From NCBI RefSeq assembly GCF_000337895.1, contig NZ_AOMA01000125.1, positions 1-50,209 on the forward strand: a stretch of DNA of 50,209 bases. The letters run 5' to 3'. A program made the position numbers and the translations under genes. The notes beneath the pieces are model-generated. The model was not told where the DNA came from. It was given only the letters and a program-made list of their open reading frames with translations, and did not search any database. How positions within the stretch are numbered: the first letter of the stretch is position 1; every line of letters begins with the position of its first letter. This DNA comes from Halobiforma nitratireducens JCM 10879 (lineage in GTDB: Archaea; Halobacteriota; Halobacteria; Halobacteriales; Natrialbaceae). This document shows, one piece after another, positions 5,928 to 45,672 of the stretch.

Positions 5928-5945
5928 GGGACCGAACGCGAATAC

Positions 5946-5981
5946 GAGTGTGCGTGTGAGTGCGAGTGCGAGTGCAAGTGC
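5946..5981. repeat. hexanucleotide repeat, GAGTGC type
   Basis: Six hexamers in a row with consensus GAGTGC and one or two changes in some units, lying 18 bases after the stop codon of the DUF418 gene. Similar six-base repeats occur near other gene ends in this window. It is likely replication-slippage DNA with no coding role here. Confidence 0.75.
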
Positions 5982-6107
5982 GACCGTACGAGACGCTCGT
6001 ACTACTGGACGACAGTCAGGACACACCCGATCGCGTCTCGACGCTCGGCGCGGAAGGCGACGACGTCTCGAGTGCGATCGGTGTGTGCAGTGTTTCGTCC
6101 GGCAGTA

Positions 6108-7037
6108 TCAGACGTACTGGAACCACTCGTCGTACTCGTCGGTTTCCCGCTCGACGACCTCGAAGAACGTCGACTGAATCTCTTCGGTGACCGGTCCGCG
6201 GGAGCCGTCGCCGACGACGACGTTGTCGACCTTGCGGATCGGGGTCACTTCGGCTGCGGACCCGGTGAAGAACAACTCGTCCGCCGTGTTGAGTTCGCCA
6301 CGGGAGATCGAAACGTTGTCGTGGACGGTGTATCCGAGGTCTTCGGCGAGCGTGATCACGGTGTCGCGGGTGATGCCGTCGAGGATCGACTCCGAGAGCC
6401 CGGGCGTGTAGATTTCGCCATCCCGGACGAGAAAGAGATTCTCCCCAGGGCCTTCCGCGACGTCGCCTTCCTTGTTGAGAACGATCGCTTCGGCGTAGCC
6501 GTTCCGGCGTGCCTCCTCTCCAGCGAGCATGCTGTTGACGTACAACCCAGTCGTCTTGGCGTTGGTCGGAATCTGGCTCGAGGCGTGTTTCCGCCACGAG
6601 GAGACCATCACGTCGATACCGTTCTCGAGTGCGTCCTCGCCGAGGTAGGTCCCCCACGGCCAGGCGGCGATAGCGGTCTTCGTCGGACAGTCGCCCGGAC
6701 TCACTCCCAGCGACTCGTAGCCGTAGAAGGCGATGGGCCGGATATAACAGGAAGCGAGATCCTGACGGCGGATGAGCTCGAGGGTCGCCTCGGTGAGTTC
6801 CGCCGCCGTAAACTCGATCTCCATCTCGTAGGGCTTCGCGGACTGGAAGAACCGCTCGAGGTGTTCCTCCCAGCGGAAGATGGCTGGCCCCTCGGCGGTG
6901 TCGTAGCATCGAGCACCCTCGAAGATGCCGCTTCCGTAGTGAAGGCCGTGGGTCAGCACGTGGATCTGCGCGTCGTCCCAGTCGACGAACTCCCCGTCCA
7001 TCCAGATCGTGTCGACATCCATCTCGTCGAATCCCAT
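6108..7037 (-). CDS. ilvE: branched-chain amino acid aminotransferase
   Basis: PLP enzyme that transfers the amino group between glutamate and the keto acids of leucine, isoleucine and valine. It is 309 residues long, a typical length for a class IV aminotransferase. Recognisable parts are the opening MDVDTIWMDGEFVDWDDA, HGLHYGSGIFEGARCY, the PLP lysine in AKTTGLYVNSMLA, GPGENLFLVRDGEI and the phosphate-binding region DGITRDTVITLA. The ATG start gives the standard IlvE N-terminus. It is divergent from the lipoprotein gene downstream in coordinate order, with 181 bases between the two starts. Confidence 0.94.
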   Translation of the reverse strand: MGFDEMDVDTIWMDGEFVDWDDAQIHVLTHGLHYGSGIFEGARCYDTAEGPAIFRWEEHLERFFQSAKPYEMEIEFTAAELTEATLELIRRQDLASCYIRPIAFYGYESLGVSPGDCPTKTAIAAWPWGTYLGEDALENGIDVMVSSWRKHASSQIPTNAKTTGLYVNSMLAGEEARRNGYAEAIVLNKEGDVAEGPGENLFLVRDGEIYTPGLSESILDGITRDTVITLAEDLGYTVHDNVSISRGELNTADELFFTGSAAEVTPIRKVDNVVVGDGSRGPVTEEIQSTFFEVVERETDEYDEWFQYV

Positions 7038-30315: not shown

Positions 30316-33189
30316 TTACTCGTCGTCCCCGTCGGTCTCACCGTCCGTCTCGTCGTCTGCCGTGTCGTCGTCCGTCTCTTCGTCGTTCGCTTGTTCGTCA
30401 TCCGTTTCGTCAGTCGGGTCCTCGATTTCGACTTCCTCGAGATCGACGTCGACGGTCTCACCGTGGACGACTGCGGACTCCGGAACCTCCGTCTGGCCCT
30501 CGTAGAACACGAGTTCCTCGTCCGGTGCGTCGACGACGACATCGTACGCATCGGTCGCTTCGACACTCGCGTTCGTGTGTCCGTCCTCGACACCGAGTTC
30601 GTCGTTCGTCGCGTACGGCACGGTGAGCTCGAAGCTCCCGTCGGCCTCGAGTTCGGCCTCCTGAACGTAGGTGAACGACTCGCGTTCGCCCGGCGTCTCG
30701 AGTTCGACGGCAGCGGTCGCCGTCGCGTCGTCGGCATCGATGTCCGCGTCGACGCTCCCGGTGATCGTTGCCCCTTCGACGCGTTCGTAGGTCTTGACTG
30801 CCGATCCCTGTCGTTCGTCGAAGAGTTCGTAGTCGAGTTCCGGCTGTCGCTCGAGTGCCTGAAGTTGCTGTTGGGTGTTCTGATCGACGCGCTGGTTGAC
30901 GAACACCTGCGGGTCGCCGTCCTCGCCGAGCAACACTTCGTCCGTGCTCTCCTCGATCACGGCGTAGCTGACGAACGTCGACGTGTAGATGTCGTTCTCG
31001 TGGACGAGTCGGTAGTTCTCCATCCCGCTCGCGTCGTCGAAGTACAGCTGGGACAGCGTCGTGTTGTCGTACGGCAGGTCGCCGAAGCGGTCCTCGACAT
31101 CGTCACGGTCGATCCGCTCGTTTGGCTCGAGGTCGGCCGGCGTCGTGTAGTGTTCGTAGTCCGGGCCGGCCCAGGCCGAGATGGCAGCGAACTTCCCACC
31201 GGCCATCTGGTCGTCGATCATCACGTACCGCATCTCCTCGTCGAGCTCTTCGCCGTCGACCATGTCCTCGAGTTCCTCGACACTCTCGTTTTCGGGCGAC
31301 TCGCCCGCGGCGATCGCATCCAGGATCAGTTCGGCTCGCTCCTCGGACTCGGCGGTCAGGAACGCCGACGAAGACGTGGCTCCGGACTGGAACGGGTTCG
31401 AGTGTGGGATCCGTTCGCCCTGTACCGTTATCAGGTGGCCGTAGTCCCACCAGGACATGACGCCGTACGCTCCCTCGGGGTAGTCGAAGTTCTCGTCTCC
31501 GGGACGGTCGTAGGTACCGTAGTACTCGAGTTCGTCGGCGCGTTCGTGTTCACCCCAGTTGCCGGGTTCCGGCGTGTTCTCGTTCAGCCACTGGTTCGAG
31601 TCCTCCCAGATGATGGAGTCGGGATGCGGGCCCGCGCCGTCGGCGCGCTCCCACGCCGTCGAGTCGTCGGCCGCGACCGGCGGGAGAAGCGGCGCGAAAA
31701 GCAGCATGACGACCATCAGGAAGACGAGTACCTGGTAGGTCTCGACCTCTCTGAGCGAGTTGACGCCCGCTTGCAGGTCCAGATCGACGAGGCGAACGAT
31801 GTCCGCGACGAAGACCGCGTTGACGACTGCAACGGCGAGCGCGAGGTAGTACGCGAACCGGATCTGGGTCGCCGACATACTGATCAGGAACAGCGACCAG
31901 ACGAGGATCAGCGTGTACTCGGTCCGGTACTCACGACCGAAGTACGGACGAAGCGCGAGGAAGCCGAGTCCGGCGAGCATCGTGTAGAACGCGGTCCCGA
32001 ACTCGTCGAAGACGTGTGCACCGAAGTCGGCGGGTGGTTGTGCCTCCTGAATCGTCTGGGCACCGGTCCCCGGGTCGAGCGGGAGCAGCCGGCTCGTGAG
32101 GTTTCCAACGAGCGTACTGTACAGGTCGGGAACGACTACTGCCATCGCGACGAACGCGCCGACGATGAGGCCGCCGATAGCTGCCGGATAGTATCGTCGA
32201 TCGATATCGTACGCGTTCCACTGGCGTGCGAACCAGGCCATGAAGACACAGCCGATGGCGACGAGAAGGGCACTGATCGGCTGGAGATAACTGAAACTCG
32301 TCACGCTTACGCCAGGGCGTTCGATCAGAAGCGCAGTGAGAATCGCCGTTACTCCGAGGCTTACCGCGCCGACGAACGCGACGTGGTCGGGTGACACGTC
32401 TCGGACGTAATCGAGACACAGCTGAACGGTGAAAAACACCGCAAGGATGCCGATCAAGACGATGGCGGGCGGCCAGACCCAGATGTAGAGCGTGAGAGCG
32501 ATTCCAGCTAGTGCGCTGTAAATCGTTGGCTCACGGAGGGCGTCCCAATCCTGATCGGCGACGAGTTCGTATATCGGTTGTTCTCGTTCGGCCACGCGGA
32601 GGGCAACCATCATGGCCAACACTGTACACGCCATAAACAGAATCTCGGCGACGTGGTGTTGGACCTGGCCGGTCACCGTTCGAGAGAGGAACTGACCGGG
32701 GATCAACGCGAGAACGAGGACGGAAACGATCCCCCCGATGGTACCGCCGAGTCGACGGCCCATGTAGAAGACGGGTATGGCGACGAGAGCCGCCATGGCT
32801 GGAACGACGAGCAGCGAAACGGTGTAAAGCGTCTGCGTCGACGGCTCTCCGAGCCCCACGATCATCGCGACCGTTACGATGATCTGGTCGAACAGGGTCC
32901 CGAACTGACCGACGTACTCGCCGGTTGGGAAACTGGTCCAGATTTCGTAGGGCATCGTATAAGGATAGTTCTCCGCGGTCCACTGGACGGTCCGCCAGTG
33001 GTACCACGAGTCGATACCGCCGAGCGCAGGGGTTCCGTCTTCGATAACAAAATTACCGTAAGCCTGGGTCCGCACCCAGAACATAAACAGCATCACAGCA
33101 CCCAAAACGGGAATGTGATACCAGTCTTTCCACGTCTCGAGGAGGGACGTTTCGGTTTCCTCCCCGACGCGTTTAGTATCGCTACTCAT
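30316..33189 (-). CDS. aglB: dolichyl-phosphooligosaccharide-protein glycotransferase
   Basis: Archaeal STT3 oligosaccharyltransferase, which moves the lipid-linked glycan to Asn in Asn-X-Ser/Thr sequons on the outer face of the membrane, for example on the S-layer glycoprotein. 957 residues. About thirteen helices (residues 28-500) carry the first acidic catalytic motif GGIDSWYHWRTVQW. The soluble domain has the hallmark WWDYGH (W580-W581). A beta-rich C-terminal part ends in a 35-residue acidic low-complexity tail (DETDDEQAND and similar). It stands alone on the minus strand, divergent from the glycosyltransferase cluster, and marks the left edge of the glycosylation island. Confidence 0.95.
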   Translation of the reverse strand: MSSDTKRVGEETETSLLETWKDWYHIPVLGAVMLFMFWVRTQAYGNFVIEDGTPALGGIDSWYHWRTVQWTAENYPYTMPYEIWTSFPTGEYVGQFGTLFDQIIVTVAMIVGLGEPSTQTLYTVSLLVVPAMAALVAIPVFYMGRRLGGTIGGIVSVLVLALIPGQFLSRTVTGQVQHHVAEILFMACTVLAMMVALRVAEREQPIYELVADQDWDALREPTIYSALAGIALTLYIWVWPPAIVLIGILAVFFTVQLCLDYVRDVSPDHVAFVGAVSLGVTAILTALLIERPGVSVTSFSYLQPISALLVAIGCVFMAWFARQWNAYDIDRRYYPAAIGGLIVGAFVAMAVVVPDLYSTLVGNLTSRLLPLDPGTGAQTIQEAQPPADFGAHVFDEFGTAFYTMLAGLGFLALRPYFGREYRTEYTLILVWSLFLISMSATQIRFAYYLALAVAVVNAVFVADIVRLVDLDLQAGVNSLREVETYQVLVFLMVVMLLFAPLLPPVAADDSTAWERADGAGPHPDSIIWEDSNQWLNENTPEPGNWGEHERADELEYYGTYDRPGDENFDYPEGAYGVMSWWDYGHLITVQGERIPHSNPFQSGATSSSAFLTAESEERAELILDAIAAGESPENESVEELEDMVDGEELDEEMRYVMIDDQMAGGKFAAISAWAGPDYEHYTTPADLEPNERIDRDDVEDRFGDLPYDNTTLSQLYFDDASGMENYRLVHENDIYTSTFVSYAVIEESTDEVLLGEDGDPQVFVNQRVDQNTQQQLQALERQPELDYELFDERQGSAVKTYERVEGATITGSVDADIDADDATATAAVELETPGERESFTYVQEAELEADGSFELTVPYATNDELGVEDGHTNASVEATDAYDVVVDAPDEELVFYEGQTEVPESAVVHGETVDVDLEEVEIEDPTDETDDEQANDEETDDDTADDETDGETDGDDE

Positions 33190-33398: not shown

Positions 33399-34538
33399 AT
33401 GCTGCTACTCTGGATCGGGCTGGCCGTCCTCGTGGTCGCTGCTATCCCGTATGCGCTCTATCTCGTCGGGTTTCGAATCGCCTCTCCAAGCGGCTCCCCC
33501 GCCCGAAAAGACGACACCGTCGAACCGGTAAGTATCGTACTGCCGACCTACAACGAGAGCGATATCGTTCGGAACACTCTCGAACGGCTCTGCTCGCTCG
33601 AGTATCCAGCTGACGAGTTGGAGATCGTCGTCGTCGACTCGAGCGACGACGATACCGCAACAGTCGTTCGCGACTTTTTCGAGGGAAAAGAACACCCCGA
33701 GTCGAGGCTCATCGAGGAAACCGATCGAGGTGGCGTCGCTCGAGCGGTCAATCGAGGAGTCGACGCCGCGAGTCACGACGTGATCTTCCGGACCGATTGT
33801 GACTCCCGTCTCCACGAAGACGCGATTACACATGCGGTAGCGAACCTCCAGGATCCGTCGGTCGGTGCCGTTACCGGTCGGCAAAAAGAGGTGCTCGGCG
33901 ACAGCGATGTCGAAGAATCGTACCGCGACATGCAGGCTCGAAATCAGGCCCTAGAGTCACATCTCGATTCGACCTTCATCGTTCACGGGCCGTGTTTCGC
34001 GTTCCGCAAAGAGTACTTCGCCCCTATCGAAGAGGACTCGCTGGCCGACGATACGGAGATCGCTATCGGGGTTCGAAAACGGGGAAAGCGCGTTCTCATG
34101 GACCCTGCAATGCAATTTACGGAGGTCGGCGTCTCGGATATCCGTGACCGACGCGAGAGAAAAGACCGTCGAGCGATGGGGTTGTTGCAATTATTGGACA
34201 GAAACCGAGACATATTCGGAGGATACGGGCTCTACGGCTGGATCGTCGTTCCCTTCAACTGGTGGTTTCTCTCCGTCTCACCGTGGCTCTCGGTCGGCGG
34301 TGCCGCCCTCTCGTTGCTCGGGTTACTGACGACGGTGCCGGTGCTCGGTGGCGCTGTGGCCGCTGCGTTCCTCGGGTTCGTCATGCTCGGTCAACGAGAT
34401 CGACTCGGACCGCTGCAGGCCCCGTACGCGGTTTTCGACTCGCATCTTTCGCTCGTCATCGCACGCGTTCGGCTTCGACGAGGGGACGAAGACGGCACGT
34501 GGTCGATCGACACGTCGTCTCGAGAGCTACTACGTTGA
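33399..34538 (+). CDS. membrane GT2 glycosyltransferase
   Basis: 379 residues. An N-terminal helix (LLLWIGLAVLVVAAIPYALYLVG) precedes a GT-A fold: VSIVLPTYNESDIVRNTLERL, then EIVVVDSSDDDT, then the DxD-type VIFRTDCDSRLHEDA, then GAVTGRQKEV. The acceptor part has ADDTEIAIGVRKRG, matching the TED-like position, and RRERKDRRAMGLLQLL. Two or three C-terminal helices follow (VGGAALSLLGLLTTVPVLGGAVAAAFLGFVMLG). It resembles GT2 enzymes of haloarchaeal agl clusters that add sugars to dolichol phosphate glycans, or processive synthases of the same architecture. Donor and linkage cannot be told. Confidence 0.8.
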   Translation: MLLLWIGLAVLVVAAIPYALYLVGFRIASPSGSPARKDDTVEPVSIVLPTYNESDIVRNTLERLCSLEYPADELEIVVVDSSDDDTATVVRDFFEGKEHPESRLIEETDRGGVARAVNRGVDAASHDVIFRTDCDSRLHEDAITHAVANLQDPSVGAVTGRQKEVLGDSDVEESYRDMQARNQALESHLDSTFIVHGPCFAFRKEYFAPIEEDSLADDTEIAIGVRKRGKRVLMDPAMQFTEVGVSDIRDRRERKDRRAMGLLQLLDRNRDIFGGYGLYGWIVVPFNWWFLSVSPWLSVGGAALSLLGLLTTVPVLGGAVAAAFLGFVMLGQRDRLGPLQAPYAVFDSHLSLVIARVRLRRGDEDGTWSIDTSSRELLR

Positions 34539-34548
34539 GACTCGTCCA

Positions 34549-35457
34549 TCACGAGTCCGAACTACGACCGACGGCCGCTCCGAGTGTCGTTTTCAATCGA
34601 TCCCGGAGTATCCGCGAACACTCACGATAGTACCCGAATCCCCGTGCTGCAGTCATCGCTACAGAGATAGCGGTGTAGAGCCCTCGGTTCATCGATTCGT
34701 CGTACTGCTCTCGTCGAATTCCGCTCGGCCGCGGCGGGATGCCGACCCGTCCGTACCGATCGGGATAGTAGCGCTGGAGCTGACAGTGCCCACGGCCGAT
34801 CCGAACGTTTCGACTGAAAAGAGACCGAAACGAATCCCGCGTCGGATGGATTACCGTCGACTCGGGTGCGTATTCGAGATCGTATCCGGCTCGATAGACG
34901 CGGTTCCCGAACTCGAGATCGCCGCCCGAGACGAGTCGTTCGTCGAACTGTCCGACCTCCTCGAGGAGGTCGCGAGTAACGAACAGACACGATGTCGGGG
35001 CGTAATGGTGGTGTTCGAGGAAATCTTCGATCGGAAAGCCGGACACGAGGTTGTACTGAGCGACCGGCGACGGGTCGTCGGGTGCCTCGAGTTCGACATT
35101 CGGTGCGAGGTAGTGTGTGCCGCGGTCGGTTAGCCGATCGATCGAGTTCTCGAGCCAGCCGTCGGTGACCCGTTGGTCGGCGTCAAGAAAACAGAGACGG
35201 TCGCTCTCGGCGTGGTCGATGCCGGTGTTGCGGGCCGCATAGGACGATTGAACGTCACGCTCGAAGACGAGCGAGACCTCCTCGTGAGCGTGCGTGTAGT
35301 TGTCGACGACAGTCGGCGTGTCGTCACTCGAGTCGTTATCGACGACGACGATCTCGATGTCCCGGGACGGACGAGATAGTAGGGACCGTAGCGTCCTGTC
35401 GATCCCACGGGCATCGTTGTAGACGGGGATTATTATCGAGATGTCCGCAGTGGTCAT
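34549..35457 (-). CDS. GT2 glycosyltransferase, soluble type
   Basis: 302 residues from the preferred ATG at 35457, where the frame opens MTTADISIIIPVYNDARGIDRT. A longer frame reaches 35511 without similarity. The GT2 core shows EIVVVDNDSSDDTPTVVDNY, SSYAARNTGIDHA and RLCFLDADQRV with the DxD metal site. GGDLEFGNRVYRAGYDLEYAPE-type GDLEFGNRVYRAG supplies the catalytic-base region. No membrane helix is evident. It is antisense to both neighbours and convergent with the GT2 gene before it, overlapping neither. It likely adds one sugar of the surface glycan. Confidence 0.8.
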   Translation of the reverse strand: MTTADISIIIPVYNDARGIDRTLRSLLSRPSRDIEIVVVDNDSSDDTPTVVDNYTHAHEEVSLVFERDVQSSYAARNTGIDHAESDRLCFLDADQRVTDGWLENSIDRLTDRGTHYLAPNVELEAPDDPSPVAQYNLVSGFPIEDFLEHHHYAPTSCLFVTRDLLEEVGQFDERLVSGGDLEFGNRVYRAGYDLEYAPESTVIHPTRDSFRSLFSRNVRIGRGHCQLQRYYPDRYGRVGIPPRPSGIRREQYDESMNRGLYTAISVAMTAARGFGYYRECSRILRDRLKTTLGAAVGRSSDS

Positions 35458-35579
35458 CCGATCTGTAAGAGATGGAACGGCGAAAAAAAGCCGTTGGTTG
35501 GTCGACCTCAACTGTTACGCGATTGGTAGGCTACGTGACGGGACATTCTTCACCTCCGGCCACGATACGCCAGAGTATC

Positions 35580-36728
35580 ATGGTTGATCTGTACGATGTT
35601 CTGACCGAGTGTGCGGATGCCGCTCTGGACGAAATATCCGAAGACGGATCTCTTCCTGCGGGAACGAACGGTCCGTGGAACGACCCGGAGACCCCAGTTC
35701 GGAACACCGGTCACTGGCTCCAGACGTTTCTCAAAGTCTACGAGGTCACTGGTGACGACCAGTACTACGCTGCTGGCGAGCAGGCGCTTGCATATTTGCT
35801 CTCTTCTACAGCCCGGCCCTACGAAAAAACGTTTCACCACCGAAAAGACAGCGAGCAGGATCGGTGTAACGGATTAATCGGCCAGGCGTGGTCCATCGAA
35901 GCTCTCGTTGCTGCGGCGTCAGTATTCGACCGAAGCAAACCGATCGAGACCGCGGAATCGATCTTCCTGAACCACCCGTTCGACGAACGGTTGGCAGCGT
36001 GGAAGATCGTCGACATCGATGGGAGCGTGGTTGGGTTCGACATGACGTTCAATCATCAGCTGTGGTTTGCTGGCGCTGGCGCGTTGCTGGCGGAGCATCC
36101 GGAAACGAGCGAGCGCGTCGAGGACCGAGTTCGACGCTTTCTCGACGAACTCGAAACGAACATGACTGTTCACGACTCGGGGGCGATCAAACACTTGCTG
36201 AAACCGGAGTTCGACGTACCGAAGTACGCGACGGTTTTCGTCGATGGCGTTCGCCGAGGGACCGCACACAAGATGGTCGCCGGGCAACTTCGGTCGCTTT
36301 TCGATCGGAGTGAGTCGGCAGAGTCAGCCGACGAGTGGTACGAGCGGGCGATCGGGTATCACTCGTTCAACCTGTACGGACTGGGAATTTTACACGAGTG
36401 GGACCCAACACACGAATTCTGGGAATCCGAAAAATTCGACCGAGCACTCACGTTTGCGACGAGTGAGACGTTCCGTACGTGTCTCGATGGGAACCCATAC
36501 GGTTATCCATACAACTGTTCGGGCATCGAGTTAGCATACGCTCTCGGCGAGTTCGATGCGGCAACACGGTCCGAACAGCAGGAGTGGCTACGGCGGCAGT
36601 TTGCCCGTACGTACGATCCAGAAACAAACGCACTCTGTCGAAATACGGACGACCCAACGACGCTGACGGCACGGCTCTACGAGGCAACGCGGCTCCCGAA
36701 CGTCCGAATCCCCGAGTCAGCGCTCTAG
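35580..36728 (+). CDS. aglQ: AglQ-like protein, alpha/alpha-toroid type
   Basis: 382 residues from the ATG at 35580; the frame begins at 35472 but the first 36 residues are basic and untypical. The sequence DLYDVLTECADAALDEI, LPAGTNGPWNDPETPVRNTGHWLQTFLK, YLLSSTARPYEKTFHHRK, RCNGLIGQAWSIEALVAAA and GFDMTFNHQLWFAGAGALL has the helical Trp/His-rich pattern of an alpha/alpha-toroid hydrolase-like fold. It agrees with my memory of AglQ in haloarchaeal agl clusters. Haloferax AglQ is needed for a complete N-glycan and was proposed to act as an isomerase or hydrolase on a sugar. The biochemical reaction remains open. Codons look less GC-biased than in core genes around it. Confidence 0.6.
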   Translation: MVDLYDVLTECADAALDEISEDGSLPAGTNGPWNDPETPVRNTGHWLQTFLKVYEVTGDDQYYAAGEQALAYLLSSTARPYEKTFHHRKDSEQDRCNGLIGQAWSIEALVAAASVFDRSKPIETAESIFLNHPFDERLAAWKIVDIDGSVVGFDMTFNHQLWFAGAGALLAEHPETSERVEDRVRRFLDELETNMTVHDSGAIKHLLKPEFDVPKYATVFVDGVRRGTAHKMVAGQLRSLFDRSESAESADEWYERAIGYHSFNLYGLGILHEWDPTHEFWESEKFDRALTFATSETFRTCLDGNPYGYPYNCSGIELAYALGEFDAATRSEQQEWLRRQFARTYDPETNALCRNTDDPTTLTARLYEATRLPNVRIPESAL

Positions 36729-36842: not shown

Positions 36843-37661
36843 GTGACATCGAGAGACTCTCCGAATCTATTGCGGCAAGGTGTTACTGTTCTCAGGCGGG
36901 ATGGGTTCGGTGCTGCAGTGAGGGCTGCGCTTCGGGTACTGAACCTCAACTATCGTGGGTTTTGGTGGTACGCTCAATACCTCTATCGGAAGAAAGTCTG
37001 TCGAGACTGCCGAACGACTGATCCGTTTTCCGTCATCCGCGTCTCTCCCGACCGAATCAGTCGACAGCCAGCCCCCCCAGTCCGTCGTTGGGGTGACTTC
37101 GGTGCCGTGTTAGACGGTGACTGGGACCAGCCGGGGAAACCACTCGAATCCTCGCTCAAGTACCGGAGCGTAGTCGATCACTTCGAAAACGAAACGCCGT
37201 GGGCGGACACCGAGCTCTATCAGGTCGCTATCGAACACGTAGAAAACGGCGACCCCTTCTGGAACGGGTCACTGACGACGGACGACGTCGAACGACGAAC
37301 GAATCACGTCGATGAGCTTTACGAAACGATCCGGGAAGAGGGGTACAAATCACAGGCGGAGCGACACGGGAAGCCGCTTCGGGAGATCGTTCTCAGCCGC
37401 ACCTTCGATCGCTCCATGGAAGAGGTCGCAGTCGCGATCGGAAGGGACGGAGAGATACTGTTCGTCGACGGAAATCATCGATTGGCGATCGCACACGTTC
37501 TTGATCTCGAGGAAATACCCGTACACGTCGTCGCGAGACACGAACAGTGGGAAGAGATCCGGAACGCCGCGCGAAACGCAGCGAGCCCGGAGGGGCTCGA
37601 CGACCGCGCCGCCCAGTATTTCCCTCACCCCGATCTCGTTCACCTAGTTGGCGATACGTAG
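36843..37661 (+). CDS. ParB/sulfiredoxin-fold-like protein, paralogue 1
   Basis: 272 residues, GTG start. The N-terminal half has a basic amphipathic region and the shared blocks TTDPFSVIRVSPDRI and FGAVLDGDWDQ. The C-terminal half has EEGYKSQA, then EVAVAIGRDGEILFVDGNHRLAIAHVLDLEEIPVHVV, with the H-R pair at 212-213 and a final HPDLVHLV. The G-x-H-R-L-A-I-A motif after a GRDGEI hairpin is the box found in ParB- and sulfiredoxin-fold proteins (GERRxRAA in ParB), a fold that also includes the archaeal free-serine kinase SerK. No DNA-binding helix-turn-helix follows. It is embedded in the glycosylation island, upstream of two paralogues. Function unknown. Confidence 0.65.
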   Translation: MTSRDSPNLLRQGVTVLRRDGFGAAVRAALRVLNLNYRGFWWYAQYLYRKKVCRDCRTTDPFSVIRVSPDRISRQPAPPVRRWGDFGAVLDGDWDQPGKPLESSLKYRSVVDHFENETPWADTELYQVAIEHVENGDPFWNGSLTTDDVERRTNHVDELYETIREEGYKSQAERHGKPLREIVLSRTFDRSMEEVAVAIGRDGEILFVDGNHRLAIAHVLDLEEIPVHVVARHEQWEEIRNAARNAASPEGLDDRAAQYFPHPDLVHLVGDT

Positions 37662-37722
37662 TCGCCACTGATAGTGGACCGATACGTTCAAACAGAAGTC
37701 GTGACATTATAGACGTAGAGAA

Positions 37723-38511
37723 GTGCCGAACCAATTACGTTCTCTCTGTGGAACGGTTATCCACTATCCGCGTGCAGTCTCTCGAATTTTCCGGCAAAAG
37801 GGTCCCGGAGCTGTCTTACAGGAGGGTAGAGAACACCTCTGGTGGCGCTGGTACCGGATACGGATGCATCCACGATTCAGACGAGTGTATGCAACTGGAC
37901 TCCGTACCGGTCGTCTCGTTCGGCGGTCACGGTTTACGGATGCAGATCCGTTCAAAGTGATCTATGTAGACCCCACGGCGATCGAACACCATGCAACGGA
38001 CCTCCCGAAGGTATGGGGCCGCGTAGTTGGCGGGGAGTGGGAAACGGTTCCGTTCGAGGAAGATACTGCGTATCGGGCGATGAAAAAGCGGTTTGTCGAC
38101 GACAAAGAGTGGGACGAAATTGACGAAAGGATAACTGACCCACAGGTATGGGAGACGCTCTATCACTCGATCAAGACTGAAGGGTACAAATCACAAGCGG
38201 AACTCGCTGCGTCGAACACGACTGACGACCTGTCCTGGGACTGTGAAATCGGTGTGGCAATCGATGCTGATGGCGACATCCACTGGGTAAAACGCGGCGC
38301 ACGTCGGATTCGAATAGCGAAACTCCTCGAGGTCGAAGAGGTGCCGGTCCAGGTCCGGATTCGGCATCCACAATGGCAGGAAGTACGCGACGAGATCCGC
38401 ACTGCAGAGTCAGTCACAGCACTGTCCGAGCGGGCACGGAAACACCTCGGCCATCCGGATTTACAGGATGTCTGTGGGACACTATCCACAAATACGAAGA
38501 GCTATGAATGA
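37723..38511 (+). CDS. ParB/sulfiredoxin-fold-like protein, paralogue 2
   Basis: 262 residues, GTG start 61 bases after paralogue 1. It keeps the family blocks TDADPFKVIYVDPTAIEH, WGRVVGGEWET, AMKKRFVDDKEWDEI, KTEGYKSQAEL, EIGVAIDADGDIHWVKRGARRIRIAKLLEVEEVPVQVRIRHPQW and a last HPDLQDV. At the key box the residues are GARRIRIA (192-199), with arginine where paralogues 1 and 3 have histidine. This makes it closer to the ParB box GERRxRA. The three copies show clear but low identity, so they are old duplications or separately acquired. The spacing suggests one transcript with its neighbours. Confidence 0.65.
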   Translation: MPNQLRSLCGTVIHYPRAVSRIFRQKGPGAVLQEGREHLWWRWYRIRMHPRFRRVYATGLRTGRLVRRSRFTDADPFKVIYVDPTAIEHHATDLPKVWGRVVGGEWETVPFEEDTAYRAMKKRFVDDKEWDEIDERITDPQVWETLYHSIKTEGYKSQAELAASNTTDDLSWDCEIGVAIDADGDIHWVKRGARRIRIAKLLEVEEVPVQVRIRHPQWQEVRDEIRTAESVTALSERARKHLGHPDLQDVCGTLSTNTKSYE

Positions 38512-38547
38512 GACGCCGTTTCCGTCGATTAACTAGCCACCGCCACG

Positions 38548-39813
38548 ATGTCTTTTCCAGCAACGCTGCTGCGTACGCGACGAAAGTATCGTTCCGATGG
38601 CGGAGCCGCGCTGCTCTCGGAAGCGATTACGAACGCTTTCGAAAGCGATCCAGTGCGGAAACTAGTGCGTCGAACGATTCTCGATCGTGCATCGATCGTC
38701 GACCAAGCACAACTGCGGGAAACCGCCGTGCGTGAGTGGGAGTGTGCACCAGAAGAGTCACCTGTGGCCTCCAGCACTGAAGTACCCATTCCCCGCAAAC
38801 GGCGTCTTCCACACAGTGGCTCGTTCGAGGGACTCGAGAGCGATCTACCGACCTCACCTTTCGTTACAGAACTCGAGGACGTAACTGTCCTGGGCCCGTC
38901 AGGACTTGCTATCACGCCCGACTCGGGACTCGTCAAAGACACTGTCGCACCTGATTCCGCATCGTCGGGGCGAATCGAGAAAATCCTGGGTCGAAGTCTC
39001 AGACAAAACGGGTTTCGTCGAACTCGGGATATCGTCCGGTCGCCAACCTCGTACAGTAATGAACAGTATTCCCTTGCAACGACTCTAGTTCCCCTGTGGA
39101 ACAACTACTATCACTGGACACTGGAATGTCTCCCAAAACTCCTCGGGATAGAGACCTACCGGAGAGAGACGGGGAACACACCGACGGTGCTCTTACCCCC
39201 GAATCCGTCGTCTTGGATGTTGGAGTCACTTGAGTTAGTAGCGAACGCGGAGATCGATACGGAACCGCTCCGGCCGGGTGCAATACGTGTGGATCGGTTC
39301 GTCGCACCTTCCTATCCGACACCATCCCGAAGGGAGTGTTTCTGGGTACGAGACCGGGTACACGACGCGGTCGATGTCGAGACTTCGGATTCCGAAGCGT
39401 ATCCGTCTCGGATCTACGTTAGCAGACGGAATGCTACCGTCCGTCGGGTAGAGAACGAACCAGCGGTACTCGAGGCTCTTTCGGAGTTCGACATCGAACC
39501 GTTCGAACTCGAGACCCTGAGCGTGAGCGAGCAAGCACGACTGTTTGCAAATGCGGAGTTCGTCGTCTCCCCTCATGGGGCGGGGTTAGCGAATATAGTG
39601 TATGCCGACGATCCAACTGTACTCGAACTCTTCGGGCAGAAAGAAAAGACGACGTTTTCGCGGCTCTCGAAGTTACTGAACAACGAGTATCATGCACTAT
39701 TCTGTGATCATACTCGAAAGGATATCGTAGTTGATACGGACGAACTCGTGTCCGTTATCACGGAGATATTGGCGGGGAACCGTGAGCCAGTCGTTCCCGG
39801 GAACGAGCAATAA
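38548..39813 (+). CDS. GT61 family glycosyltransferase
   Basis: 421 residues. The C-terminal half matches DUF563/GT61: LWNNYYHWTLECLPKLLGIE at about residues 186-205, PSRIYVSRRNATVRRVENEPAV, and the strong signature VVSPHGAGLANIVYADDPTVLELFG (about 335-360). No membrane helix is evident. GT61 enzymes include plant xylosyl- and arabinosyltransferases and bacterial homologues; an archaeal glycan role is inferred from position. It lies between paralogues 2 and 3 of the ParB-like family. The next gene starts two bases after its stop. Confidence 0.85.
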   Translation: MSFPATLLRTRRKYRSDGGAALLSEAITNAFESDPVRKLVRRTILDRASIVDQAQLRETAVREWECAPEESPVASSTEVPIPRKRRLPHSGSFEGLESDLPTSPFVTELEDVTVLGPSGLAITPDSGLVKDTVAPDSASSGRIEKILGRSLRQNGFRRTRDIVRSPTSYSNEQYSLATTLVPLWNNYYHWTLECLPKLLGIETYRRETGNTPTVLLPPNPSSWMLESLELVANAEIDTEPLRPGAIRVDRFVAPSYPTPSRRECFWVRDRVHDAVDVETSDSEAYPSRIYVSRRNATVRRVENEPAVLEALSEFDIEPFELETLSVSEQARLFANAEFVVSPHGAGLANIVYADDPTVLELFGQKEKTTFSRLSKLLNNEYHALFCDHTRKDIVVDTDELVSVITEILAGNREPVVPGNEQ

Positions 39814-39814
39814 T

Positions 39815-40672
39815 ATGTCCTCTCTCGAGCCTATCAAAGAAGCCGTCCGTGACCTCCGCGGCGTGATAACGAGAGCGATAACGACGTTGCGTGCTGGTGG
39901 TCCCGACCGTCTCCTCTTTTACAGTATGCGATATATAAGCTGGAAGGGAGAGTTCCATCGGCGTGTTCGGTCCCTTCCGGCCCCGATAGCGACGATCATG
40001 TATTCAGTGACCCGAACCGTCGTACGCTGTCTCACTCGGTTCTTCAGGATACTTTACCCCCAAAAGTATACGGATGCTGATCCATATAAATATATCCTCG
40101 CTGATCCGTCGGAAATAGAGTACACCACGGGAGAAATATATTCGAAGCGGCGTGGGTGGGTCGTCGACGGTAACTGGGACAAATGTGGCGAGCCGTATAT
40201 GCAGCGACCGTATGCCAGAGCAATCAAACAACGATTCGTCGATGGACTGTCCTGGGAAGAGACCGCTCTCTCGGAACAGTACGACGAGCCGAGAGTGAAA
40301 AAACGGGGGAACGAAATCGAGCACCTCTACAACAGTATCCGGGAATCCGGATACAAATCGCAGTACCGTCTTCTCCGAGAGGACCCCAACACTGCATGGA
40401 GCAGCCTCAACGACGCGATGCATCCGCTGGCCAACGAGATTGCCGTCGATATCGGTCGAAACGGAGAGATACTGTGGAATCTCTGCGGACAACATCGCCT
40501 TGCAATCGCGAAGGTTCTCGATATCGATCGAATCCCGGTGCAGGTATTTCGCCGACACGCCGAGTGGCAAGCTATTCGAGATCGGGCCCGACGGGGAGAG
40601 GAGATTCCAGAAGAGTTTGCCGAGCATCCGGACCTCGAGGATGTCCTCGCCGACGAGTCGGCTGACCGATAA
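39815..40672 (+). CDS. ParB/sulfiredoxin-fold-like protein, paralogue 3
   Basis: 285 residues from the ATG at 39815. The N-terminal part is very basic (REFHRRVRSL-type GEFHRRVRSLP and a hydrophobic run around PIATIMYSVTRTVVRCL). Shared blocks are TDADPYKYILADPSEIEY, RGWVVDGNWDKCGEPY, AIKQRFVDGLSWEET, ESGYKSQYRLL, ANEIAVDIGRNGEILWNLCGQHRLAIAKVLDIDRIPVQVFRRHAEWQAIRD and HPDLEDVLADES. The histidine-arginine pair is at 227-228 in GQHRLAIA. Base composition at the 5' half is clearly AT-rich for this genome. Translation is probably coupled to the GT61 gene, whose stop is two bases upstream. Confidence 0.65.
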   Translation: MSSLEPIKEAVRDLRGVITRAITTLRAGGPDRLLFYSMRYISWKGEFHRRVRSLPAPIATIMYSVTRTVVRCLTRFFRILYPQKYTDADPYKYILADPSEIEYTTGEIYSKRRGWVVDGNWDKCGEPYMQRPYARAIKQRFVDGLSWEETALSEQYDEPRVKKRGNEIEHLYNSIRESGYKSQYRLLREDPNTAWSSLNDAMHPLANEIAVDIGRNGEILWNLCGQHRLAIAKVLDIDRIPVQVFRRHAEWQAIRDRARRGEEIPEEFAEHPDLEDVLADESADR

Positions 40673-40721: not shown

Positions 40722-42164
40722 ATGCGTCTCGGACAAACTTCCGTCATCTATCTCGTTTCAAAATTCGGTGGCTCCGTGCTTGGCTTCCTCGCCACCATTT
40801 ACTTCACCCGGACGCTTGGCGAAGAAGTATACGGCTTCTACGCGATTACACTCGCGCTCGTTTCTTGGCTCGGGATCGTCAAAAGCGTCGGTTTCGGGAA
40901 AGCGATCGTCAAGCGGATGAGCGAAGACGAGGAGCCGGACGCGTACTTGGCTGCCGGGACGACGATCAAAATCGTACTCACGACGGTGGTTTCTCTCGCC
41001 GTTCTCGTCTTTAGCGACCACGTAAACGCATATATCGGTCGACCGGTCGCCGAGTTCGTCGTACTGCTGTTGCTCGTCTCGATTTTCAGCGGGCTGGTCA
41101 ATGCTGCCCTCAAAGGGAGCCATCGCGTCCACATTTACGCCCCCCTCAGCACCGCAAAAGAGGGTGCCCGAAGCGTTGCCATGATTGCTCTCGTACTCCT
41201 CGGCTGGGAGCTAACGGGGATGCTGGTCGGTCACGCACTCGGAACCGCGGTAATCGCGGCACTCGGACTGTTGATCGTTCGACCGACGATCACGGTCCCG
41301 GAGCGGCGACACGTCGTTCGATTGTTCGATTTCGCGAAGTTCTCTTGGCTCGGAAATATGCGCAAAAAGGCGTTCAGCGATATGGATATTATGGTTCTCG
41401 GCTTGTTCGTTCCAGCCGGTCTGACGGGGATCTACGCCGTTGCATATACGCTGGCGAAGTTCCTGGATGTCTTCGGAAGTGCTATCCAGACGACCCTCTT
41501 TCCCGAGTTGAGCAAACGGTCCAAAGCTGGAGACACCGAGATGGTACGGAAGCTCACGAACGACGCGCTCTCTTATGCGGGGTTGTTCCTGATACCGGGA
41601 ATTATGGGCGCAGCGATCCTCGGAGATCGTCTCATGCTCGTCTACGGAGACGGCTTCGATATCGGTGCACGGATACTGACGATCCTGCTCGTAGGCATCC
41701 TCGCATATACCTACAACAAACAACTCCTCAACACGCTCAACGCGATCGATCGACCGGACCTCGCGTTTCGGGCAAACGGCGTCTTCATCGGTGCGAACCT
41801 GGTTCTCAATCTCGCACTCGTCTACAGTATCGGGTGGCTGGGCGCAGCGATCGCGACAGCTGCGTCCGCGACGATTGGCCTTCTCTGTGGATACTACTAT
41901 GCGCGTCAGCACGTTCGGTTTCGTGTCCCTGTCGGGGAAATCTCGAGACAGGTCTTCGCCGCCCTGCTGATGGGAATCGTCGTCTACGGTGCTCGCGCCC
42001 TCGGCGAAACTCATCCCATCGCCGCTTACAACGAGGTGTTCGTCGTCCTGCTGGTTGGTCTCGGCGCGACCATCTACTTCCTCGTCTTGCTCGCGATTTC
42101 GAGTTCCTTCCGTTCGACCGTCTCGGATAACCTTCCGTTCGACGTTCCGTACATTACGAACTGA
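40722..42164 (+). CDS. oligosaccharide flippase, MATE/Wzx type
   Basis: 480 residues with about fourteen membrane helices. The beginning LGQTSVIYLVSKFGGSVLGFLATIYFTRTLGEEVYGFYAITLALVSW and the central LFDFAKFSWLGNMRKKAFSDMDIMVLGLFVPAGLTGIYAVAYTLAKFLDVF are standard for polysaccharide-biosynthesis flippases. It should move the dolichol-linked glycan across the membrane for AglB. Haloferax AglR is the counterpart by function; whether this is an orthologue cannot be settled here. It lies upstream of aglF and its stop is 51 bases before that gene's start. Confidence 0.9.
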   Translation: MRLGQTSVIYLVSKFGGSVLGFLATIYFTRTLGEEVYGFYAITLALVSWLGIVKSVGFGKAIVKRMSEDEEPDAYLAAGTTIKIVLTTVVSLAVLVFSDHVNAYIGRPVAEFVVLLLLVSIFSGLVNAALKGSHRVHIYAPLSTAKEGARSVAMIALVLLGWELTGMLVGHALGTAVIAALGLLIVRPTITVPERRHVVRLFDFAKFSWLGNMRKKAFSDMDIMVLGLFVPAGLTGIYAVAYTLAKFLDVFGSAIQTTLFPELSKRSKAGDTEMVRKLTNDALSYAGLFLIPGIMGAAILGDRLMLVYGDGFDIGARILTILLVGILAYTYNKQLLNTLNAIDRPDLAFRANGVFIGANLVLNLALVYSIGWLGAAIATAASATIGLLCGYYYARQHVRFRVPVGEISRQVFAALLMGIVVYGARALGETHPIAAYNEVFVVLLVGLGATIYFLVLLAISSSFRSTVSDNLPFDVPYITN

Positions 42165-42215: not shown

Positions 42216-42965
42216 ATGCAAGCAGTCGTGTTGGCCGCGGGCAAAGGAACTCGCCTCCGGCCGCTGACCGAGGACAAACCCAAGGTCCTCGTCGAAGTCG
42301 ATGGCAAGCCCCTCATCGAGGACGTCTTCGACAACCTCCTCGAGGTCGGCGCGACGGAGTTTATCGTCGTCGTCGGCTACCAGAAAGAACAGATCATCGA
42401 ACGGTACGGCGACGAGTACGAGGGCGTCCCGATCACGTACACCCACCAGCGGGAACAGCTGGGACTGGCCCACGCGATCCTACAGGCCGAACCCCACGTG
42501 GACGACGATTTCATGCTGATGCTGGGGGACAACGTCTTCCGGGCGAACCTCGGTGACGTGATCAATCGCCAGCGAGAGGAACGTGCGGATGCGGCGTTTC
42601 TCGTCGAGGAAGTCCCCTACGAGGAGGCCTCCCGCTACGGCGTCCTCGATACCAACGAGTACGGCGAAATCGTCGAGGTGATGGAGAAACCCGACGATCC
42701 GCCGTCGAACCTCGTGATGACCGGCTTCTACACCTTTACGCCCGCCATCTTCCACGCCTGCCACCTCGTTCAACCCTCCGACCGCGGTGAGTACGAGCTC
42801 CCGGACGCGATCGACCTGCTGATCCAGTCGGGACGGACCATCGACGCGATTCGAATGGACGGCTGGCGCATCGACGTCGGCTACCCGGAGGATCGCGACC
42901 GAGCCGAAGAGCGACTCGAGGATGGCGACGAGATCGACGCTCCGGAGCTGCAAGCCGACAGCTGA
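42216..42965 (+). CDS. aglF: glucose-1-phosphate nucleotidyltransferase
   Basis: Makes UDP- (or dTDP-) glucose from glucose 1-phosphate, the activated sugar for glycan assembly. 249 residues. The nucleotide loop VVLAAGKGTRLRPLTEDKPKVLVEVDGKPLIE is at residues 4-35. The rest of the catalytic fold follows: FMLMLGDNVFRANL with the metal aspartate, EVPYEEASRYGVLDTNEYGEIVEVMEKP and RMDGWRIDVGYPEDRDRA. The length is that of the short archaeal AglF type, lacking a C-terminal beta-helix. A TATA-like AGTATATA (42183-42190) is 26-33 bases before the ATG, so this transcript may be leaderless. It fits directly with aglM, which oxidises UDP-glucose. Confidence 0.93.
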   Translation: MQAVVLAAGKGTRLRPLTEDKPKVLVEVDGKPLIEDVFDNLLEVGATEFIVVVGYQKEQIIERYGDEYEGVPITYTHQREQLGLAHAILQAEPHVDDDFMLMLGDNVFRANLGDVINRQREERADAAFLVEEVPYEEASRYGVLDTNEYGEIVEVMEKPDDPPSNLVMTGFYTFTPAIFHACHLVQPSDRGEYELPDAIDLLIQSGRTIDAIRMDGWRIDVGYPEDRDRAEERLEDGDEIDAPELQADS

Positions 42966-43085: not shown

Positions 43086-44468
43086 ATGAACGTCTCTATC
43101 GTCGGCAGCGGCTACGTCGGAACCACCGTCGCCGCCTGTCTCGCGGAGCTGGGCCACGATGTCGTCAACGTCGAGATCGACGAGGATATCGTCGCGACGA
43201 TCAACGCGGGCGACGCGCCGATCCACGAGTCCGGCCTCGAGCAGCGTATCGCCGAACACGCGGGCGACTCGCTGCGCGCGACCACGGAGTACGCCGATGT
43301 CCGCGAGACCGACGTTACGCTGCTCTGTCTCCCGACCCCACAGAGCGACGACGGCAGTCTCGACCTCGCGCCGATGCGGGCCGGGACGGAGATGCTCGGC
43401 GAGGCCCTCGCCGAGAAGGACGACGAGCACCTCGTGGTCGTCAAGAGCACGGTCCTGCCAGGGACCACCGAAGAGGTCGTCGCGCCGATCCTCGCCGAAC
43501 AGTCCGGCACCCCCATCGGCGAGGGGATCGACGTCGCGATGAACCCCGAGTTTCTCCGGATGGGGACCGCCGTCGGCGACTTCCTCGAGCCGGACAAGGT
43601 CGTGCTCGGGACCCGAACCGACGCCGCAGCGGCCACGCTCCGGAACCTCTACGCACCCATTCTCGAGACCGACGGCACTGCTCTCGTCGAGACCGACGTT
43701 CGCGAGGCGGAACTCATCAAGTACGCGAACAACGCCTTCCTCGCGTCGAAAGTTTCCCTCGTGAACGAACTCGGTAACATCGCTAAGGAGTACGGTGCAG
43801 ACGCCTACGAGGTGCTCGAGGCCGTTGGGCTCGACGATCGCATCTCGGAACGGTTCATGCGCTCGGGCCTGGGCTGGGGCGGTTCCTGCTTCCCGAAAGA
43901 CGTCGCCGCGATCCGGGCCGGCGCGCGCGAACAGGGGTACGAACCCGAACTGCTGGACGCCGTCGTCGCGGTCAACGACGAGCAACCGCGGCGGCTCGTC
44001 TCCCTGCTTGCCGACCACGTCGACCTCGAGGGTGCTCGGATCGCGGTGCTTGGCCTCTCGTTCAAACCCGGGACCGACGACATTCGGAAATCACGTGCAC
44101 TGGATACGATCGAGTCCCTCCGCGAGCGGGGCGCGACGGTCGCTGCGTACGATCCGGTCGCGGTCGATAACGTGCGGGAGTATTACGCCGGCGGCGACGA
44201 GTCCGTCCTGGTTGACCTCGAGTTCGCCGATACTGCCGCGAGCGCGCTCGAGGACGCCGACGGCGCGGTCGTCGCGACGGACTGGCCGGAGTTCGACGAC
44301 CTCGAGGCCGAGTTCGAGGGGATGGCCCGCACGGTCGTCGTCGACGGACGGCGGATCGACGTCGACGAGGACGCGCTCGAGGGGATGGCCCGCACGGTCG
44401 TCGTCGACGGACGGCGGATCGACGTCGACGAGGACGCGCTCGAGGTGTACGAGGGATTGACGTGGTAA
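43086..44468 (+). CDS. aglM: UDP-glucose 6-dehydrogenase with a duplicated C-terminal segment
   Basis: Oxidises UDP-glucose twice with NAD to UDP-glucuronic acid, the precursor of hexuronic acids in the glycan. 460 residues. Rossmann motif GSGYVGTTVAACLAELGHDVVNVEID starts at residue 7. Other signatures are CLPTPQSDDGSLDL, STVLPGTTEEVV, MNPEFLRMGTAVGDFLEPD, KYANNAFLASKVS, and the catalytic cysteine in GWGGSCFPKDVAAI. The second nucleotide-like domain starts around 320 with IAVLGLSFKPGTDDIRKS. The last 50 residues contain a 21-residue segment twice in exact succession, GMARTVVVDGRRIDVDEDALE. Relatives normally have it once, so this copy is longer by 21 residues. Reading frame is kept. Confidence 0.94.
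   Translation: MNVSIVGSGYVGTTVAACLAELGHDVVNVEIDEDIVATINAGDAPIHESGLEQRIAEHAGDSLRATTEYADVRETDVTLLCLPTPQSDDGSLDLAPMRAGTEMLGEALAEKDDEHLVVVKSTVLPGTTEEVVAPILAEQSGTPIGEGIDVAMNPEFLRMGTAVGDFLEPDKVVLGTRTDAAAATLRNLYAPILETDGTALVETDVREAELIKYANNAFLASKVSLVNELGNIAKEYGADAYEVLEAVGLDDRISERFMRSGLGWGGSCFPKDVAAIRAGAREQGYEPELLDAVVAVNDEQPRRLVSLLADHVDLEGARIAVLGLSFKPGTDDIRKSRALDTIESLRERGATVAAYDPVAVDNVREYYAGGDESVLVDLEFADTAASALEDADGAVVATDWPEFDDLEAEFEGMARTVVVDGRRIDVDEDALEGMARTVVVDGRRIDVDEDALEVYEGLTW
44314..44445 (+). repeat. exact 63-bp tandem duplication inside aglM
   Basis: Two identical 63-base units, 44314-44376 and 44377-44439, with the first six bases of a third. Each encodes 21 residues beginning around the methionine at residue 413 and again at 434. 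No base differs between the copies, so the event is recent or is kept homogeneous. Confidence 0.95.
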
Positions 44469-44579: not shown

Positions 44580-45644
44580 ATGGAACATGACGGGACGGTC
44601 GCGCAGGCGGACCGCGACGGCGATGGGGAGGTCATCGCCATGAGCGGTACCGAAACGGCGCGCGAGATCGCGTCCGACGAGGTGTGCGTCCTCATCCCGA
44701 CGCTCGAGGAGGCCGCGACGATCGGCGACGTGATCGACGGCTTCCACGAACAGGGGTACGAGAACGTCGTCGTCATCGACGGCGGTTCCGAAGACGACAC
44801 CCAGGAGATCGCACGTGACCGCGGCGCGACGGTGCTCGTACAGTCCGGCGACGGAAAAGGCCAGGCAGTCCGCGAGGCAGTCGACTACATCGACGTTCCC
44901 TACGTCCTCATGGTCGACGGCGACGGGACCTACGATCCTGCCGACGCCGGCCGGATGCTCGAACCCCTCTCCCGGGGGTACGAACACGTCATCGGGAACC
45001 GGTTTGCCGACATGGACGACGACGCGATGAAGGCGCTGAACGGGTTCGGAAACCGGATGATCAACCGCTCGTTTCGCTTTATCCACGGGGCGGACTACGA
45101 CGACATCCTCTCGGGCTATCGGGCCTTCACAGTCGATTCGTTCGAGCGGCTCTCGCTGGACTCGGATGGGTTCACGATCGAGACCGAACTCGCCGTCGAG
45201 TGCGTAAAACACGGCGTCGACACGACGGTCGTTCCGATCAGTTACAGCGCCCGGCCCGAGGACTCGGAGACGAACCTCCACCCGATCAAAGACGGCGGGA
45301 CGATCATCCTCGCGCTGTACTCGCTTGCCAAGACGAACAACCCGCTGTTTTACTTCGGCAGCCTCGGTGTTTCCGGCATCGTCGCCGGTGGGGCCGTCGC
45401 AGCGTACGTCCTCTGGCAGTGGGTCCAGCACGGCCAGGGTCACGAGATCCTCGCGCTGGTTGCGGCCGCGGGCATTCTGCTAGGCGTCCAGCTGCTGATG
45501 TTCGGCGTCCTCTCGGACATGCTCGTGACCCTCCACCGGGAGCAGCGCCGACGCCTCGAACAGATCACACGCGAAGCCCGCGAGGGCGAAGGCGATGCTG
45601 CTTCCGGCCACGACTCTCGAGAGCGAAACCGAAAGCGAGACTGA
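44580..45644 (+). CDS. aglJ: dolichol-phosphate glycosyltransferase, AglJ type
   Basis: Loads the first sugar of the N-glycan onto dolichol phosphate at the inner face of the membrane. 354 residues. The GT2 core reads VCVLIPTLEEAATIGDVIDGF (about 32-52), VVVIDGGSEDDTQEIA, VLVQSGDGKGQAVREAVDY, the metal site VDGDGTYDPADAG, and HVIGNRFADMDDDAMKALNGFGNRMINRSF. The acceptor region has DILSGYRAFTVDSFERL, then two C-terminal helices from about 262 to 320. The start ATG at 44580 gives 20 extra acidic residues before a second ATG at 44640, which is the alternative. It ends the glycosylation run. Confidence 0.92.
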   Translation: MEHDGTVAQADRDGDGEVIAMSGTETAREIASDEVCVLIPTLEEAATIGDVIDGFHEQGYENVVVIDGGSEDDTQEIARDRGATVLVQSGDGKGQAVREAVDYIDVPYVLMVDGDGTYDPADAGRMLEPLSRGYEHVIGNRFADMDDDAMKALNGFGNRMINRSFRFIHGADYDDILSGYRAFTVDSFERLSLDSDGFTIETELAVECVKHGVDTTVVPISYSARPEDSETNLHPIKDGGTIILALYSLAKTNNPLFYFGSLGVSGIVAGGAVAAYVLWQWVQHGQGHEILALVAAAGILLGVQLLMFGVLSDMLVTLHREQRRRLEQITREAREGEGDAASGHDSRERNRKRD

Positions 45645-45672
45645 GAGCAAGACTGAGAGCGAGACTGAGAGT
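45637..45672. repeat. three-unit 12-bp repeat spanning the aglJ stop
   Basis: GAGACTGAGAGC occurs as three near-exact 12-base units (45637-45648, 45649-45660, 45661-45672), with the aglJ stop codon at 45642-45644 inside the first. One more example of short tandem repeats close to gene ends. Confidence 0.75.

Follow-up and report, generated by a model that had tools for sequence, protein, structure and literature searches.

Three proteins encoded in a 50,209-nucleotide stretch of the haloarchaeon Halobiforma nitratireducens JCM 10879 (contig NZ_AOMA01000125.1, positions 1–50,209; hereafter the window) belong to an unannotated family that is predicted to be built on the ParB/sulfiredoxin nucleotide-binding fold. 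We refer to them as P0001, P0002, and P0003; they lie in an N-glycosylation island. The members are connected by homology, fold, and motifs, and their genes are linked to those of glycosyltransferases, a flippase, and the oligosaccharyltransferase AglB. The family suggests an undescribed step in the building of cell-surface sugars. Our preferred reading, to which we give a probability of roughly 0.4, is that these are nucleoside triphosphate (NTP)-binding enzymes dedicated to surface-glycan assembly, most likely transferring a phosphoryl group to a sugar hydroxyl of a dolichol-linked oligosaccharide.

A preliminary description of this DNA had delineated the three open reading frames and a set of blocks common to them. 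All three frames are present, encoding 272, 262, and 285 residues, and the blocks all occur in the order described, with P0002 diverging in two of them (GEWE replaces GxWD, and GARR replaces GxHR). The three proteins are true paralogues: pairwise BLASTP gave E-values of 1e-27 for P0001 and P0002, 3e-28 for P0001 and P0003, and 1e-34 for P0002 and P0003, at 30–33% identity. The family matches no Pfam or NCBIfam model and no PDB sequence entry, and its members are annotated as hypothetical protein in RefSeq and in RefSeq-derived plasmid annotation. Single-member sequence searches against Pfam, NCBIfam, and the PDB returned nothing credible; matches to oskar, PhoU, and GRDA were dismissed as chance.

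The fold was examined by structure prediction, which could have given an unrelated fold. AlphaFold2 instead produced ParB/sulfiredoxin-fold models of P0001 (predicted local distance difference test (pLDDT) 93.8, predicted template modelling score (pTM) 0.88, from 82 sequences) and of P0003 (pLDDT 91.3, pTM 0.86, from 38 sequences). When compared with the PDB by Foldseek, both models matched near-exclusively entries of this fold, namely sulfiredoxin, Noc, KorB, ParB, PadC, SbnI, and SerK. The best probability for P0001 was 0.96, and ranks 1–48, setting aside Atu1540, were all named ParB/sulfiredoxin-fold proteins or close kin. Foldseek aligned P0001 with SbnI at 2.7 Å over 77 columns (probability 0.91), with the cytidine triphosphate (CTP)-bound ParB structure 7bm8 at 2.8 Å over 77 columns, and with the Pyrococcus protein 1vk1 at 2.6 Å over 80 columns. 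Furthermore, hhalign aligned the family profile with ParB domains gathered with PF02195 from 17 genomes at a probability of 87% and a score of 44.3. The controls scored far lower: 100 column-shuffled versions did not exceed 20.4, the reversed profile gave 13.2, and none of seven unrelated families exceeded 23.4. In this alignment the LYESIREEGYKSQ helix and loop fall opposite ParB Box I, and GxHRLAIAKLL..IPV falls opposite Box II. In a PDB profile search the serine kinase SbnI ranked first, at an E-value of 0.6 that is weak and serves as support only. The AlphaFold2, Foldseek, and hhalign results together bear out the fold that the preliminary description had proposed, and P0002 would share it by homology. 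That description had also stated that no DNA-binding domain is attached, and Pfam and NCBIfam scans of P0001–P0003 indeed detected neither a helix-turn-helix (HTH) nor a C-terminal dimerisation domain. PF02195 (ParB_N) matches neither the three proteins nor the family within its own genome, and the ParA-binding motif LG(K/R)GL is absent from the three translations.

Residue conservation was measured over 117 non-redundant members and is given in P0003 numbering. The nucleotide-binding motifs, Box I and Box II, are retained. Within Box II, G225 and R228 are each conserved in 98% of members and H227 in 84% (Asn in 13%), the box reading DGNHR in P0001, GARR in P0002, and CGQHR in P0003. Changing the Box II Arg generally abolishes nucleotide binding in ParB-fold proteins (PMC12704722). 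Outside the nucleotide box, W121 (96%), D122 (92%), W147 (94%), R215 (92%), G217 (95%), and H248 (96%) are strongly conserved, and H271 and D273 both reach 85%; several of these polar positions are not accounted for by a DNA clamp. The GDWD motif is family-specific and sits, like D122, between strand 1 and Box I. SerK and SbnI have a catalytic Glu after strand 1. In SerK, E30 follows that strand, and D122 may be its counterpart; an E30Q mutant of SerK deposited in the PDB (5x0k) shows that this residue had drawn experimental attention. Haloarchaeal members carry a basic N-terminal helical segment with a median net charge of +7, the remainder of the protein having a median of −9. Because this segment is basic whereas cytosolic haloarchaeal proteins are usually acidic, the haloarchaeal members are probably attached to the membrane.

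Among characterized proteins, the free serine kinases SerK (Thermococcus TK0378) and SbnI (Staphylococcus) are both nucleotide-using enzymes with an HTH-less ParB/sulfiredoxin fold and a GxHR box (DGxHR in P0001), and SbnI is the best match in the PDB profile search. Unlike them, the new family has an insert with GDWD and W-x-x-T, basic N-terminal helices, a C-terminal HPDL motif, and a glycan-cluster context, and the Asp of the DGxHR box of SerK and SbnI is not general in it. With the CTP-binding domain of ParB, Noc, KorB, and PadC (PF02195) it shares the Box I helix-loop, the Box II GxxR, and the topology, but it differs in escaping PF02195, in lacking the HTH, dimerisation domain, and ParA-binding motif, and in genomic context. 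Sulfiredoxin has the same compact fold and provides the top Foldseek matches, but the family lacks the catalytic Cys of GCHR (the boxes read GNHR, GARR, and GQHR) and has no link to peroxiredoxin. Sulfiredoxin chemistry was dismissed because the GxHR box holds no Cys.

The family recurs next to glycan genes. We scored glycan context as matches to GT2, GT4, GT61, Wzx, and AglB profiles within ~10 kb of a member and used 20 fixed-position windows as a control. At least one such gene was found at 19 of 20 loci in Natrialbaceae, the taxonomic family of the host, compared with 1 of 20 control windows (Fisher p 3e-9); at 26 of 39 loci in other haloarchaea (p 3e-6 against the same control); and, without a matched control, at 13 of 17 loci in bacteria and other non-haloarchaea. 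Hence the homologues lie mostly in glycan clusters and not mostly outside them. In Natrialbaceae, a member lies less than 300 bp from a glycosyltransferase or flippase gene at 13 of the 20 loci, and AglB is present in the ~20 kb covered at 9. At one locus from a different haloarchaeal family (L197), five paralogues are interleaved with GT61, flippase, and glycosyltransferase genes beside AglB, which repeats the architecture of the P0001–P0003 island. A fourth, distant homologue elsewhere in the host genome (E 5e-21; L188) lies near glycosyltransferase genes and an ATP-binding cassette (ABC) exporter. Two expectations of the preliminary description proved too narrow. The family is not tied to N-glycosylation: bacteria have it in polysaccharide clusters, and members are also found next to ABC exporters. 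Co-occurrence with GT61 is local (8/20 loci in Natrialbaceae, 2/39 in other haloarchaea, and 0/17 in bacteria and others).

The three-paralogue profile matches 73 of 125 Natrialbaceae genomes from 25 of 29 genera, a single genome having as many as 12 copies. Across the class, sampled evenly, 167 of 392 genomes have a match at 1e-5; the survey profile includes fused methyltransferase columns, and discounting the 15 genomes with E-values above 1e-10 leaves ~152. A contig scan used 13 rows of the alignment, since all 38 together were too diverse, and found the family in Pontibacter, Halanaerobium, Pelagimonas, Azospirillum, Petrachloros, Nealsonbacteria, a Chloroflexi metagenome-assembled genome, Balneolaceae, and a woesearchaeote. 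A tree of 67 members places P0001 together with a gene of the equivalent Natronolimnohabitans island (66% identity) and P0003 together with flippase-adjacent genes of Natronorubrum, Natronolimnohabitans, and two more genera. In several genera, P0003 orthologues at 61–65% identity adjoin the gene for a Wzx flippase; one at 63% identity, from a different haloarchaeal family, has a flippase gene as its neighbour within an AglB island. P0002 sits alone on a long branch, and this 67-member sample contains no close orthologue of it.

Bacterial members add a second domain. In those of Nealsonbacteria, Chloroflexi, and Azospirillum, Pfam recognizes an S-adenosylmethionine (SAM) methyltransferase domain at the C-terminus, and a Nevskiales member aligns with these fusions through the methyltransferase region (bacterial fusions at L063, L074, L080, and L082). 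A member paired with a methyltransferase of another family is encoded on the viral contig L186 from IMG/VR (4914–6278); it has 454 residues and ends in a C-terminal Methyltransf_24 domain. Viral contigs gave two overlapping matches of a single type, and phage records gave no match to the family. WaaP/Kdo and APH-type kinases are recurrent neighbours of the bacterial members, and these kinases and the methyltransferase fusions would both fit the phosphorylation of sugars or lipid heads that the preliminary description had raised as a possibility. A comparable arrangement is known from WbdD, the kinase-methyltransferase of the E. coli O9a O-antigen, which caps the glycan by phosphorylating and then methylating it (PMC3482155). 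As in WbdD, the bacterial fusions are glycan-cluster proteins in which a methyltransferase domain is joined to one that may be a phosphotransferase; the kinase fold of WbdD, however, is of eukaryote type, whereas here the nucleotide domain is of ParB/sulfiredoxin type and its activity is putative, and the haloarchaeal members, unlike WbdD, have no methyltransferase. We claim no homology to WbdD because a phmmer search of the PDB with the fused methyltransferase domain found just the generic methyltransferase fold.

In the preferred reading, the basic N-terminal helices would place the proteins on the cytoplasmic side of the membrane. There an NTP bound via the GxHR box would be used on the dolichol-linked oligosaccharide prior to flipping. 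Phosphoryl transfer to a sugar hydroxyl would resemble the reaction of SerK and SbnI with free serine; the Asp of GDWD, which hardly varies, is a candidate base, and the several paralogues of an island might each act on a different sugar or position. The SAM methyltransferase attached in the bacterial fusions could then methylate the product, giving a two-step cap like that of WbdD on a different fold. We favour phosphoryl transfer because it has precedent in HTH-less enzymes of this fold (SerK, SbnI, and sulfiredoxin, which uses ATP to phosphorylate a sulfinic acid) and because of the neighbouring kinases and the methyltransferase fusions. A broader proposal is more tentative: the family may be a new class of glycan kinase on the ParB/sulfiredoxin fold, membrane-associated and phosphorylating lipid-linked glycan sugars in archaea and bacteria, with the fused methyltransferases producing methyl-phosphate caps in some bacteria.

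Several observations weigh against the enzymatic reading. Catalytic activity cannot be shown from sequence. The acidic residue that precedes GxHR in the DGxHR box of SerK and SbnI is present in P0001 but missing from P0002, P0003, and much of the family, and P0002, which may be a non-catalytic partner, lacks the His and Asp of two motifs. The individual Foldseek E-values are weak (best 0.018), although one fold class fills the list. Moreover, 13 of the 39 other haloarchaeal loci and 4 of the 17 other loci have no recognized glycan gene within ~10 kb, and the kinases next to bacterial members could themselves supply the phosphorylation.

The main rival, which we consider unlikely, is that the proteins are nucleotide-dependent regulatory or assembly subunits, in which a CTP, ATP, or GTP switch would control or scaffold a glycosyltransferase, flippase, or methyltransferase with no phosphate transfer. 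ParB is itself a CTP switch, a survey described enzyme fusions of ParB-fold domains that bind ATP, CTP, or GTP (PMC12704722), and both the close spacing to glycosyltransferase or flippase genes in Natrialbaceae and the loss from P0002 of two motif residues expected of an enzyme are in keeping with a regulatory role. On the other hand, the conserved D122, R215, H248, H271, and D273 lie beyond the nucleotide box and resemble an active site, and the partners vary among GT2, GT4, GT61, Wzx, and ABC exporter, such that no single regulated partner emerges.

Other NTP chemistry on the same substrate is improbable; it would comprise nucleotidyl or phospho-head-group transfer, or the activation of a carboxylate, for example of uronic acids, toward an ester or amide. 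The island does produce uronic acids through AglF and AglM, sulfiredoxin is established to phosphorylate an acid group, and bacterial members are fused to methyltransferases, but we recognize no acceptor-specific domain and know of no precedent for nucleotidyl transfer in the ParB/sulfiredoxin fold. It is likewise improbable that the proteins are non-catalytic adaptors that bind glycan or lipid and have kept the fold while losing nucleotide use: the basic helical N-terminal segment and the motif loss in P0002 would suit such a role, but the Gly and Arg of GxxR are maintained across domains of life. Finally, DNA-acting ParB relatives (in partition, nucleoid occlusion, or transcription regulation) carried into glycan islands by island mobility are very unlikely, for although the fold is that of ParB, some copies are plasmid-borne, and glycan islands are variable, canonical ParB function was dismissed on the lack of HTH and dimerisation domains, PF02195 misses the family in the host genome, islands that contain AglB and a flippase recur across families, and no phage record matched.

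The preliminary description knew of no role for such proteins in archaeal glycosylation, and our literature search for ParB in connection with glycosylation in haloarchaea, or with capsules and glycosyltransferases, turned up nothing relevant, subscription papers and preprints being outside the search. A 2025 survey of the ParB-CTPase fold reported a fusion of the ParB fold with a SAM methyltransferase that bound ATP, but that survey starts from PF02195, which misses the new family in the genomes tested, and the main text (December 2025) names no glycan-assembly clade (PMC12704722). The word ParB is absent from a 2026 study of aglB-anchored islands that included Natronorubrum (PMC13308652). 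The proteins represent a known fold in a new family and an apparently new setting.

The genes of the island are listed in Table 1. On the plus strand the epimerase-like gene is followed by P0001, P0002, GT61, P0003, the flippase, aglF, aglM, and aglJ, with aglB and two GT2 genes upstream of this run. All the main genes between 35472 and 45644 are on the plus strand except one GT2 gene, with gaps of 114, 61, 36, 1, 49, 51, 120, and 111 bases, and because of this common strand and the short gaps the run looks like an operon. Curated models and Pfam confirmed the aglB, aglF, aglM, aglJ, and GT61 neighbours named in the preliminary description, to which we add the flippase and the two GT2 genes, all three of which, like GT61, score above their Pfam cut-offs; its 'AglQ-like' assignment of the epimerase-like gene stays unconfirmed. 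That gene is 68% identical to one in the equivalent Natronolimnohabitans island, and a phmmer search with it found no match.

Table 1. Genes of the glycosylation island, with coordinates in the window
Feature	Position	Strand	Evidence
aglB oligosaccharyltransferase	30316..33189	-	NCBIfam TIGR04154, 870 bits vs cut-off 450
GT2 glycosyltransferase	33399..34538	+	Pfam PF00535 E 8.5e-24
GT2 glycosyltransferase	34549..35511	-	Pfam PF00535 E 2e-25
Possible uronic-acid epimerase-like gene; identity unconfirmed	35472..36728	+	PF06662 (C5-epimerase) E 0.19, sub-threshold
P0001, paralogue 1, ParB/sulfiredoxin-fold protein with VDGNHR box, 272 aa	36843..37661	+	BLASTP, AlphaFold2, Foldseek
P0002, paralogue 2, diverged copy with GARR box and GEWE, 262 aa	37723..38511	+	BLASTP
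GT61 glycosyltransferase, between P0002 and P0003	38548..39813	+	Pfam PF04577 E 4.8e-24
P0003, paralogue 3, GQHR box, 285 aa	39815..40672	+	BLASTP, AlphaFold2, Foldseek
Wzx/MurJ-type oligosaccharide flippase	40722..42164	+	Pfam Polysacc_synt_3 E 3.8e-21
aglF UTP-glucose-1-phosphate uridylyltransferase	42216..42965	+	NCBIfam NF041313 above cut-off
aglM UDP-glucose dehydrogenase	43086..44468	+	NCBIfam NF041297 above cut-off
aglJ dolichol-phosphate glycosyltransferase	44580..45644	+	NCBIfam TIGR04182 above cut-off

The C-terminus of aglM contains 2.8 copies of a 63-base unit (44266–44454) that duplicates the peptide EGMARTVVVDGRRIDVDEDAL, which may be genuine or an assembly artefact, and the 3' end of aglJ carries a low-complexity ESETESET repeat (45619–45671). 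At 27505–29745 on the plus strand, a 746-residue protein with FHYIGHATPDG and FFLNACQSYEQG stretches appears by eye to be CHAT-type and caspase-like, and has no match in Pfam or NCBIfam.

We also noted other gene associations of the family. At L057, L058, L062, L070, L071, and L136, members, often two in opposite orientation, accompany one or two ABC exporters (ABC_membrane plus ABC_tran) and a DUF192 protein, with no recognized glycosyltransferase nearby. P-loop kinase-like AAA proteins are found near members at L184 (8691–10696), L185 (6839–11901), and L039 (12493–13245); L184 and L185 also contain PAP2 phosphatases, and L185 sugar transferase and O-antigen ligase genes. A neighbour of ~250–305 residues with GNDVDIVVAEDD, nucleotidyltransferase-like by eye, occurs at L067 (8386–9303), L052, L078, L040, L053, and L039, and the one member scanned had no Pfam match.

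This unannotated family, which sits in glycan islands, occurs in about two fifths of the sampled haloarchaeal genomes. If these proteins do turn out to be enzymes, the N-glycan pathways of archaea as now drawn miss a whole class of reaction, and the ParB fold gains a role in surface polysaccharides in both archaea and bacteria. The Arg of GxHR and the Asp of GDWD are candidate residues, and together with the gene clusters they make the idea directly testable. Should the glycan-kinase class prove true, haloarchaeal N-glycans would carry phosphates not yet described.

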